Shown here in pieces: positions 21,127-25,042 of a stretch of DNA of 64,000 bases (positions within the stretch are counted from its first letter, which is position 1; each line of letters begins with the position of its first letter). A program made the position numbers and the translations under genes. The notes under the pieces were generated by a model, which was not told where the DNA came from, searched no databases, and saw only the letters and a list, made by a program, of their open reading frames with translations. Source of the stretch: Bradyrhizobium guangzhouense. Lineage in GTDB: Bacteria > Pseudomonadota > Alphaproteobacteria > Rhizobiales > Xanthobacteraceae. Where the stretch lies: assembly GCF_004114955.1 (NCBI RefSeq), contig NZ_CP030053.1, forward strand, positions 62,001 through 126,000, read 5' to 3'.

Positions 21127-22697
21127 TTTCTGCCATCACCCACATCACGCGCCTGATCCGCGCTGCGTTCGTGTTTGCGCGCGAGGGCGTGTTCGGCGCC
21201 GTCGACCCGAGCCTGGTGCCGCCGCCCGGTCAGCTTGCGCTGAAGCTGGCGCGTCTCGTCGAACGCCGCGGCGTCAAGCAGGGACCGCGGCTCTCGCGCG
21301 CGTTGACGCGCATGGGCCCGGCCTATCTCAAGCTCGGCCAGTTCCTCGCAACGCGCCCCGACGTCGTCGGCTTCAACATGGCCCGCGACCTCGAAAGCCT
21401 GCAGGATCGCCTGCCGCCGTTTTCGCAAGCCGAGGCGGAAGCCGCGATCGCGACGTCGCTGGAGCGGCCGCTGAAGGATATTTTCGTCACATTCGGCCCG
21501 CCGGTGGCGGCCGCCTCGATTGCGCAGGTGCATCGTGGCGAAGTGATGCGTGACGGCATCCGCAAGGCAGTGGCGGTCAAGGTGCTCAGGCCCAACGTGG
21601 CCTCGCGCTTCCGCCGCGACCTCTCCGATTTCTTCTACGTCGCGCACAAGGCCGAAGCCTATTCGGCCGAGGCACGGCGGCTGCGCCTCGTCGAGGTCAT
21701 CAACACCATGTCGCGCTCGGTCGCGATGGAGATGGATTTGCGGCTTGAAGCGGCCGCGCTGTCGGAGATGGCGGAGAATACGGAAGGCGATCCTGATTTC
21801 CGCGTACCTGATGTCGACTGGGACCGCACCACGCACAACGTGCTGACGATGGAGTGGATCGACGGCATCGCGCTGAACGATCACAAGCGCCTGGAAGAGG
21901 CGCAGGTCGATCTGCCCGATCTCGGCCGCAAGGTGATCCAGAGCTTTCTGCGCCACGCGCTGCGCGACGGCTTCTTTCACGCCGACATGCATCCGGGCAA
22001 TCTGTTCCTCGATGACGCCGGCCGCCTCGTCGCGGTCGATTTCGGCATCATGGGCCGGCTCGGCATGAAGGAGCGGCGCTTCCTCGCGGAAATCCTGCTC
22101 GGCTTCATCACCCGCGACTATCGACGCGTCGCCGAAGTGCATTTCGAGGCGGGCTATGTACCCTCGCATCACTCGGTCGAGAATTTCGCGCAAGCGATCC
22201 GCGCCATCGGCGAACCGATCCACAACCGCACCGCCGAGGAGATCTCGATGGCGCGCCTGCTCACGCTGCTGCTCGAGGTCACCGGCCTGTTCGACATGAC
22301 GACGCGGCCCGAGCTGATCCTGCTGCAGAAGACCATGGTGGTGGTCGAGGGTGTGGCGCGCGGCTTCGATCCCAGGCTCGACATCTGGAAGGTCGCCGAT
22401 CCCGTCGTCCGCGAATGGATCGAGCGCAATCTCGGACCTGTCGGCCGTATCCAGGGCGCGATGTCCGGCGCCGGTGTGCTGGGTCACCTGCTTTCGAAAC
22501 TACCCGAGATCGCGAACCGCGCCGTCACCGTGCTGGAGCAGATGGAAGACATGACTCGCGAGGGTCACTTCCTGTCGCCGGACACGATCGAGGCCTTGGG
22601 TCGCAAGGAGGCCAAGAAAGCCCGTGTCAGCACAATCGCGCTCTGCGTCATCGCTGCCGCCTCCATCGGCATTCTCGTCGCCCTGTTGCGCATGTGA
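21123..22697 (+). CDS. ubiB: Ubiquinone biosynthesis kinase-like protein UbiB
   Basis: Membrane-linked atypical kinase/ATPase of the ADCK/UbiB family, needed for ubiquinone synthesis. The family marks are [14 protein letters not shown] (KxGQ motif), the alanine-rich loop [16 protein letters not shown], the catalytic [12 protein letters not shown] and the metal-binding AVDFGIMG. The C-terminus ends in a hydrophobic segment that anchors the protein. The GTG start overlaps the ubiE stop (GTGA). Its TGA stop lies inside the first of two palindromes that precede coaBC. Confidence 0.95.
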
Positions 22698-22712
22698 TTG
22701 CATTGCAATCAC
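22694..22712. promoter_or_regulatory. Operator-like palindrome 1 before coaBC
   Basis: GTGATTGCA-T-TGCAATCAC, a perfect dyad. It contains GATTGC and GCAATC half-sites three bases apart. It overlaps the ubiB stop codon and lies 23 bases upstream of a second palindrome with the same half-site layout. Confidence 0.7.
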
Positions 22713-22715
22713 GCT

Positions 22716-22736
22716 AATGATAGCATCGCTATCATT
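22716..22736. promoter_or_regulatory. Operator-like palindrome 2 before coaBC
   Basis: Perfect 9-base arms AATGATAGC and GCTATCATT flank ATC. The GATAGC-N3-GCTATC core has the same geometry as palindrome 1. From memory, TGATAGCA/TGCTATCA is the half-site bound by the gonococcal antitoxin FitA, whose fold is encoded at the start of the gene that follows. Confidence 0.75.
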
Positions 22737-22753
22737 CCGTGCTGGAGGGCGTC

Positions 22754-24214
22754 ATGGCAAGCCTGACCATCCGTAAGCTCGACGACACCGTCAAAGCCTA
22801 TCTGCGGCTGCGCTCGGCCAGGAATCACAGGTCGGTCGAGGAAGAGGTCCGGGTCATCCTGCGGGAGCTGATCGAGGGCCGTGAGGAGCCGCTGACGCCG
22901 TTCTCGGCGCCGCCCGAGGCATCTCCCGCGCCGGCGCCCGTGCGCTCCAGCGCCGTCCCCGAGGCCAGCGTCACCCTCATTATCGGCGGCGGGATCGCGG
23001 CCTTCAAATCGCTCGACCTGATCCGCAGGCTGAAGGAACGGCGCATCGAGGTGCGCTGCGTACTGACCAAGGCGGCCGAGCAATTCGTCACGCCGCTCTC
23101 GGTCAGCGCGCTCTCCCATGAGCGCGTCTATATTGATCTGTTCGATCCCCAGAGCGAGTTCGACGCCGGCCATATCCGCCTGGCGCGCGACTGCGACCTG
23201 ATCGTGGTGGCACCGGCGACCGCCGATCTGATGGCGAAGATGGCAAACGGCCATGCCGACGATCTCGCCAGCGCCATCCTGCTCGCGACCAACCGCAAGA
23301 TACTTCTGGCGCCGGCCATGAATCCGCTGATGTGGAACAACGCCGCGACCCGCCGCAACGTCGCGCAGCTTCAGCGCGATGGCGTGCTGCTGATCGGCCC
23401 CAATTCCGGCGAGATGGCGGAAGCGGGCGAAGCCGGCGTCGGCCGCATGTCGGAAGCAATCGAGATCGCCAATGCTGCCGAGAAACTGCTACGGCCGCCG
23501 CTGCCGCGGCCGCTCGCCGGCAAGCGCGTGCTGATCACCGCGGGCCCCACGCACGAGCCGATCGATCCGGTGCGCTATATCGCCAACCGCTCCTCCGGCA
23601 AGCAGGGTTTTGCCATTGCTGCCGCAGCGCAAGCCGCGGGCGCGGAAGTGATCCTGGTGAGCGGCCCTGTGGATCTCGACGATCCCGCCGGCGTCACCGT
23701 GAAGCACGTGGAATCGGCGCGGCAGATGCTGGAGCAGGTGCAATCGGCGCTTCCCGCCGACATCGCGATCTTCGCTGCCGCCGTCGCCGACTGGCGCGTT
23801 GCCGTCGAGGGCGAGCAGAAGCTGAAGAAGACCGCGGCCGGCATGCCGCCGCTTCAATTGGTCGAAAACCCCGACATCCTCGCCACGATCTCGAAGCTCG
23901 CCGACAAACGTCCGCCGCTGGTGATCGGCTTCGCCGCCGAGACCGAGCATCTCATCGACAACGCGAAGTCGAAACTCGCGCGCAAGGGCTGCGACTGGAT
24001 CGTCGCCAACGACGTCTCGCCTGCATCAGGCGTGATGGGCGGCGACCGCAACACCGTGCATCTCATCAGCAAGAATGCCGAGAACAACGGCGAGCTCACA
24101 GTTGATTCCTGGCCCGTCATGACCAAGGAACAGGTCGCCATCGAACTGGTCGCGCATATCGTGAAAAGCGTGACCGACAAATCCGTCGACAAATCGTTGG
24201 AGCCGGCCTCTTGA
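22754..24214 (+). CDS. coaBC: Ribbon-helix-helix domain fused to phosphopantothenoylcysteine synthetase/decarboxylase CoaBC
   Basis: Makes 4'-phosphopantetheine for coenzyme A: the CoaB half ligates cysteine to phosphopantothenate and the CoaC half decarboxylates the product. With the ATG at 22754 (GGAGGG ribosome site) the protein has 486 residues, longer than the usual 400 or so. Residues 1-42 ([20 protein letters not shown] onward) match the FitA/VapB antitoxin DNA-binding domain. A Pro/Ala linker spans about 43-71. The flavin CoaC domain follows with catalytic His140 (AGHIRLARD) and Asn190 (LAPAMN), then CoaB ([28 protein letters not shown]). The substrate-flap Cys of E. coli CoaC is not seen ([15 protein letters not shown]). 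The stop overlaps the TTG start of dut. A GTG at 22739 is the alternative start. Confidence 0.9.
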
Positions 24215-24669
24215 GCAGCAAAGTCACGGTCGAACTGCAACGCCTGCCGCACGCGGAAGGCTTGGCCCTGCCGGCGTACCAGACCGCAGAGGCCGCCGGC
24301 CTCGATCTGATGGCGGCGGTGCCGGAGGGCGAGCCGATGACGCTCGCGCCGGGCCAATACGCGCTGGTGCCGACCGGGCTTGCGATTGCCTTACCGCCCG
24401 GGCACGAGGCCCAGGTGCGGCCGCGCTCCGGCCTTGCGGCCAAGCACGGCGTCACCGTGCTGAACTCGCCCGGTACTGTCGACGCCGACTATCGCGGTGA
24501 GATCAAGGTGATCCTGATCAACCACGGCCCGGCGCCATTCGTGATCAAGCGCGGCGAGCGCATCGCGCAGCTGGTGATTGCGCCCGTGGTGCAGGCCGCG
24601 CTGGTTCCGGTGGCGACGCTGTCGCCGACCGATCGCGGCGCCGGCGGGTTTGGGTCGACGGGGCGGTAA
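24211..24669 (+). CDS. dut: Deoxyuridine 5'-triphosphate nucleotidohydrolase (dUTPase)
   Basis: Hydrolyses dUTP to dUMP, which keeps uracil out of DNA and feeds dTMP synthesis. All five trimeric-dUTPase motifs are present: [54 protein letters not shown]; and the C-terminal [11 protein letters not shown] that closes the site. The 152-residue length is normal. The TTG start overlaps the coaBC stop. This pairing of coaBC and dut is common in bacteria. Confidence 0.95.
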
Positions 24670-25042
24670 GCCGAGCTGCGAGTTGGTCTCACCTCTCCCG
24701 CTTGCGGGAGAAGTCGCGCCGAAGGCGCGGGTGAGGGTTCTTTCCTCCGGGGGAGTGTCCCGGTGTGGAGAGAGCCCTCTCCCCAACCCTCCCCCGCAAG
24801 CGGGGGAGGGAGCGCACCTTGCTTCGCGGAAACAATCTCATCAGCCGCTAACACCCAGCACCACCAACCAAATCACCGCAGAATTACGTGAGGCTGGAAC
24901 TCCTCGCCGCGCATTTTTTTGGGGCCGGGTTTGCGTTCACGGTCTGGACTCTTACCGGTGGAGTCGCGGTGGGGGTATTGTCGTTTGATTCGCGCGCGAC
25001 GGGGGTCGCCGCGAGGTCAATTCGTGCGGTCTTGGGGCAACT
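24670..25042. other. 373-base region between dut and divL
   Basis: The first part (24690-24811) is a palindromic repeat of family C. The rest up to the divL start should hold its promoter. I see no clear CtrA box (TTAA-N7-TTAA) or gene. Confidence 0.5.
24690..24811. repeat. Palindromic repeat, family C, copy 1
   Basis: Begins CACCTCTCCCGCTTGCGGGAG and ends CCTCCCCCGCAAGCGGGGGAGG, with GGTGAGGGTTCTTTCCTC inside. The copy at 61111-61261 has the same parts in the opposite orientation (GGAAAGAACCCTCACC). Confidence 0.75.

Follow-up and report, generated by a model that had tools for sequence, protein, structure and literature searches.

A FitA-like ribbon-helix-helix head on CoaBC and the putative operators that accompany it

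The essential coenzyme A synthesis enzyme CoaBC encoded in the 64 kb window (the whole stretch of DNA analysed here) carries an N-terminal FitA-like ribbon-helix-helix (RHH) head, and its gene is preceded by two palindromes built from the half-site found before free FitA-like antitoxins. We consider it about 85% probable that CoaBC is an autogenous repressor, acting through its RHH heads on clustered half-sites over its own promoter. The evidence consists of the head, the selection acting on it, the operators, the co-occurrence of head and operator under phylogenetic control, and the presence of the same half-site before free antitoxins. From this evidence, DNA binding by CoaBC, repression, and the position of the promoter are predicted.

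The ribbon-helix-helix head of CoaBC

The coaBC gene (22754-24214, plus strand) encodes a protein of 486 aa with matches to PF22513, PF02441, PF04127, and TIGR00521. The original prediction set the gene at 22694-24214, a start that takes in the operators, whereas the gene itself begins with the ATG at 22754. A Shine-Dalgarno sequence (GGAGGG) lies at 22744-22749, and residues 1-42 are thus made from an ordinary start. These residues had been predicted to form an RHH domain, and a search of the N-terminus against RHH families had been proposed as a check; PF22513 (FitA-like_RHH) matched residues 2-38 strongly, with 60.1 bits (E 2e-16) for the N-terminal piece alone and 55.1 bits (E 7e-15) in the whole-protein search, against a gathering score of 27.

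The head (residues 1-41; 22754-22876, plus strand) comprises a strand (ASLTIRKL) and two helices (residues 11-24 and 28-41). In the predicted structure, which has the RHH fold, pLDDT was 90 or more in 33 of the 61 residues of the head model, and the structural neighbours were CopG, the PutA RHH domain, Arc, and FitA in complex with DNA. T5, R7, R26, S27, E29, E31, and R33 were invariant across 23 diverse heads. The head is followed by a fast-evolving Pro/Ala-rich linker (residues 42-70; 22877-22963, plus strand), of which residues 46-68 had pLDDT under 50, and by the CoaC (PPC decarboxylase, FMN) and CoaB (PPC synthetase) domains (22964-24211, plus strand). TIGR00521 covered residues 73-469 (E 2.4e-115), showing that both enzyme domains are complete, and the architecture of head, Pro/Ala linker, and complete enzyme was therefore as originally described. 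The motifs GHIR, PAMN, AAVADWR, and KxKK were invariant in 18 fused CoaBC proteins.

Purifying selection acts on the head and far less on the linker. The dN/dS values, estimated without L175, were 0.06-0.21 for the head, 0.40-0.74 for the linker, and 0.05-0.17 for the enzyme domains. In the group that includes the window's gene, the head had about three times the value of the enzyme domains (0.21 against 0.07-0.08). A translation start downstream of the head, which would have undone the fusion, was rejected because the head is under selection at the protein level.

The fused architecture is already visible in automatic Pfam annotation, and searches of the open PubMed Central literature found no account of CoaBC with such a head. 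A query with the head region, combined with a CoaBC length filter, retrieved 1681 proteins at E 0.01; 118 of the 120 proteins listed contained PF22513 and both CoaBC domains, and the other two were shorter and lacked PF04127. Within the genus, 34 of 35 other genomes matched from residue 1 or 2, and the remaining one ended at a contig end. Sampling of the family by one genome for each of 46 other genera identified the head in 27 (one of them a broken gene) and plain CoaBC in 17, together with one cut gene and one genome without a match. Matches were also sought in a sparse class-wide sample of 389 genomes; of those listed, none from another genus than the window's started at residue 1, and five (G557, G489, G637, G698, and G669) began between residues 19 and 45.

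A second fused group was found in named genomes of Phyllobacterium, Zhengella, Bartonella apis, and a Nitratireductor MAG. In its apparent family, that of G058 on the Rhizobiaceae side, 34 of 151 genomes matched from residue 1 or 2, and the CoaBC of G058 grouped with that of Rhizobium in the tree of the enzyme body. This tree, which like the later one omits L135 and L175, separated the two fused groups by supported plain lineages (98/91). A single origin of all fused genes was rejected on this separation of the enzyme bodies; the two heads, compared over only 42 columns, may share an origin or have arisen apart. In L136 and L299, which represent one contig (an Afipia MAG by the title of L299), the head and operator were kept and the linker was out of frame. 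The frame break lies near a C run and leaves the head and enzyme in different frames, reflecting either a sequencing error or a real split.

Half-sites upstream of coaBC and of free antitoxins

Two perfect palindromes whose starts are 23 bases apart had been reported directly before coaBC, and both are present. Palindrome 1 (TGATTGCATTGCAATCA; 22695-22711) is TGATTGCA-T-TGCAATCA, a perfect 8-N1-8 arrangement; the upstream ABC1/UbiB-type gene ends within it, with bases 1-3 of the palindrome as its stop codon. Palindrome 2 (TGATAGCATCGCTATCA; 22718-22734) is TGATAGC-ATC-GCTATCA, a perfect 7-N3-7 arrangement; its right arm reads CGCTATCA rather than the TGCTATCA that had been stated. Both putative operators are conserved in relatives. 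Perfect 7-N3-7 palindromes were seen 20 times in the window, compared with 9.6 expected from a first-order model, and two pairs lay within 40 bases of each other (the coaBC pair and 59536/59560), compared with 0.15 expected. From these counts, the pair alone is only suggestive, and the weight rests on its conservation in relatives.

The half-site TGATNKCA (reverse TGMNATCA) was fixed on a first set of relatives and then applied unchanged to later sets. Of 139 fused genes, 123 had two or more half-sites in the 120 nt before the start and 134 had at least one, while two or more occurred in 0.4% of shuffles and in 1 of 139 blocks at 200-320 nt upstream. For plain genes, the beginning of the enzyme body served as the reference point for the upstream block; none of 23 had two or more half-sites and a single one had one. 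L056 (a short contig end) was left out of this set, and the 23 plain genes are the 25 initially classed as unfused minus the broken fused genes L135 and L136. Five fused genes had no site within 120 nt: L093, L106, and L169 have half-sites 156-282 nt upstream, beyond apparent inserted repeats, and in L104 and L159 the 400 nt before the gene contain none. Apparent repeat elements between the half-sites and coaBC were seen in L139 as well as in L093, L106, and L169.

The same pattern was obtained with the later sets, which are not all independent, because the named genomes overlap the unnamed ones. Within 130 nt in the named genomes, at least one half-site was present in 54 of 57 fused genes and two or more in 50, compared with 1 and 0 of 21 plain genes, respectively (counts corrected for L287, at a contig end, and L299, from the contig of L136). 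In the second clade, all 34 fused genes had at least one half-site and 27 had two or more, whereas of the 36 plain genes two had a single half-site and none had two or more. Under one genus code (g370), L334 had both head and sites and L355 had neither. The spacing of the half-sites differed by lineage (+- 9, ++ 9, +- 18, and ++ 22/23). An extra half-site, TGCAATCA, was observed immediately ahead of the coaBC start codon (at -9), over the ribosome binding region, in L332, L333, L334, L335, and other second-clade loci.

Shared ancestry was taken into account using a CoaBC body tree of 117 sequences, thinned from 151, in which the placement of the long-branched L378 and L401 is unsure. The distribution of the head required 16 changes on this tree, of which 14 were forced by supported branches. 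For 14 independent head/no-head pairs, the presence of at least one site agreed with the head in 13.3 on average and opposed it in none (median p 0.00024), and that of two or more sites agreed in 10.6 on average and opposed it in none (median p 0.001). L136, with its head in another frame and its operator kept, was left out of the pair test. Among the fused rows of the thinned set, 15 of 71 lacked two exact half-sites and 4 of 71 had none. The survey of CoaBC architectures and upstream palindromes that had been suggested for relatives thus showed operators that track the head under phylogenetic control, and palindromes that are conserved where the fusion is.

Free FitA-like antitoxins were examined at 34 loci (two from the window's own genome, five from genomes of the genus, and 27 of 28 others, L248 being left out for its long open frame). 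Within 120 nt, 23 of them had at least one half-site, 11 had two or more, and 11 had none; the shuffle mean was 0.03 half-sites per locus, and none was found 240-360 nt upstream. The half-sites before coaBC are the same as those before these antitoxins, and since they are shared by 23 of the 34 loci, the operator code belongs to the head. The half-site type that the original prediction attributed to FitA is consistent with this result. The sequence of the gonococcal FitA operator was not found in the open PubMed Central literature. Two free FitA-like antitoxins, similar to each other and about 5 kb apart, are encoded in the window's genome (L192 and L193, at about 5.73 Mb on C1). One of them has exact half-sites and the other has none, and each is followed by an open frame that resembles a PIN-type toxin by eye.

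Across the window's genome, TGATNGCANNGCNATCA has three exact matches, and the coaBC palindromes account for two of them; the third, with the looser arrangement of palindrome 2, is at C1:2540911. As far as exact sites go, a wide CoA regulon was considered and rejected, because the exact arrangement TGATNKCA-N1-TGMNATCA occurs once in the genome, before coaBC; degenerate sites may mark further targets. Of seven other places, six were inspected, five from the search for half-site arrangements and one from the TGATNGCANNGCNATCA search, and no CoA genes were recognised at them by eye. All six coincide with one or more mechanically called open frames at least 100 aa long, which may or may not be coding; L405, which has two-base spacing, is in addition a short distance ahead of two divergent open frames, one of them Crp/FNR-like by eye.

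Proposed autoregulation and alternative explanations

A candidate promoter, TTGCAT-N17-TAGCAT with TG one base before the -10 element (22698-22726, plus strand), was proposed by our own loose scoring and matches the consensus at 7 of 12 positions, its -35 element lying inside palindrome 1 and its -10 element inside palindrome 2. A stricter sigma-70 scan requiring nine matches returned no plus-strand promoter and one weak minus-strand pair. With the loose score, 109 of the 140 fused loci had a promoter-like pair, where shuffled sequences gave a mean of 40.9, and with a higher score 81 had one against 11.5; the figure for plain loci was 6 of 23 against 2.1 in shuffles. Among the 109 pairs, a half-site was overlapped by the first hexamer in 79 and by the second in 65.

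The gene is flanked by the ABC1/UbiB-type gene upstream and by dut (dUTPase; 24211-24669, plus strand; PF00692) downstream. The TTG start of dut overlaps the coaBC stop codon, and the two genes are probably co-transcribed. The apparent position of this TTG over the stop codon (24205-24214) also suggests translational coupling. The gap between dut and the next gene contains G+C-rich inverted repeats (cctctcccgcttgcgggag / ccctcccccgcaagcgggggagg; 24680-24830) that look like dispersed repeats.

In the proposed mechanism, the heads of neighbouring protomers would pair, such that each two-stranded beta ribbon recognises a half-site of 8 bp (TGATNGCA). As an oligomer, the enzyme would present several head pairs, which would sit together on the clustered half-sites at the coaBC promoter and probably cover its -35 and -10 elements. 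Both coaBC and the overlapping dut would be held down, and the promoter would shut when CoaBC is ample. Multivalency is suggested by analogy with the mycobacterial enzyme, which is reported to be a dodecamer whose six edges are formed by CoaB dimers and whose four vertices are formed by CoaC trimers (PMC7794376). If the enzyme encoded here assembles likewise, its twelve heads could pair as six RHH dimers, a number sufficient for the window's four half-sites. The variable spacing of half-sites between lineages fits this model only loosely.

Binding in the service of repression was weighed against three other explanations. The head could bind the sites mainly as an activator or as a tether between enzyme and DNA; the evidence that the sites overlap promoter hexamers depends on loose scoring, and the RHH protein AmrZ is reported to be both an activator and a repressor. 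We regard this as unlikely, since the half-sites are clustered just before coaBC, and the FitAB and VapBC complexes are reported to control their own transcription through operators that lie within their promoters. Still less probable is that the operator is bound in trans by a free FitA-like antitoxin or another regulator, leaving the head as a partner-binding or stability module. Such a regulator might be sought in the two free antitoxins of the window's genome, one of which has similar half-sites, but a single PF22513 match (E 1e-5) was found in 52 of 60 genomes of the genus, in 51 of those within a CoaBC-length open frame (G035 is the exception, with a cut coaBC and a free antitoxin present). 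Moreover, the operator follows the CoaBC head in about 13 of the 14 independent contrasts.

We give hardly any credence to the head being a passive relic of a fusion, with the palindromes reflecting promoter symmetry only. The conserved sequence can partly be read as -35 and -10 hexamers; however, dN/dS in the head is far below that in the linker, the sites are gone from genes without the head, a second clade shows the fusion again, and the same sites stand before free antitoxins.

Autogenous repression through the head therefore remains our preferred reading. The original prediction held that CoaBC had captured an antitoxin head with its operator and represses its own gene. The phylogeny-controlled co-occurrence of head and operator supports this, with head and operator apparently gained or lost together; their joint capture is likely, and self-repression is what the sequences would imply. 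More tentatively, and in our view less likely than not, an RHH head and operator may form a portable cassette that passed from toxin-antitoxin modules onto CoaBC at least twice in Hyphomicrobiales and was gained and lost as a unit, with CoaBC being metabolite-gated via the active site that CoA thioesters inhibit, thereby tuning CoA capacity, and dUTPase, to CoA/acyl-CoA. If autogenous repression holds, transcriptional control of an essential pathway would be built into CoaBC itself, as an enzyme that reads DNA, in a large group of soil-dwelling and symbiotic bacteria, an antitoxin domain would have been domesticated along with its operator, and the 14 independent contrasts would represent a natural experiment on an enzyme turning into a regulator.

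Comparison with known systems

BirA and NadR are enzymes that also repress genes of their own pathways in response to a known effector; their DNA-binding heads and the enzymes themselves differ from those of CoaBC. The mycobacterial-type CoaBC (Dfp) shares the complete CoaC and CoaB domains with their conserved motifs, and differs in that the protein encoded in the window has about 70 extra N-terminal residues bearing the RHH head. Mycobacterial CoaB is inhibited by CoA thioesters, and the control described for it is not transcriptional (PMC7794376).

The type II toxin-antitoxin systems FitAB and VapBC share with coaBC the PF22513 family (FitA) and the same type of half-site before their own genes. 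FitA is reported to contact DNA by RHH dimers within a larger FitAB complex. Unlike in these systems, no PIN-domain toxin gene is adjacent to coaBC, whose head continues in frame into CoaC-CoaB in place of an antitoxin tail, and the neighbouring genes are the ABC1/UbiB-type gene and the dUTPase gene. The coaBC locus is not a toxin-antitoxin locus, because no toxin gene follows.

Trifunctional PutA of the E. coli type resembles CoaBC in having an N-terminal RHH head on a flavin-dependent metabolic enzyme, and it represses its own operon. CoaBC is different from PutA in that it functions in CoA synthesis and not in proline oxidation, is encoded by a biosynthetic gene, carries a FitA-type head, and has no known membrane switch. 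The RHH head of PutA mediates autogenous repression, and the E. coli head grafted onto a headless PutA is reported to have conferred DNA binding (PMC5293562). The PutA RHH structures 2gpe and 2rbf were among the best structural neighbours of the CoaBC head. Judged from sequence, coaBC encodes a metabolic enzyme with an RHH head and has matching putative operators in front of it, and PutA is its closest working precedent.
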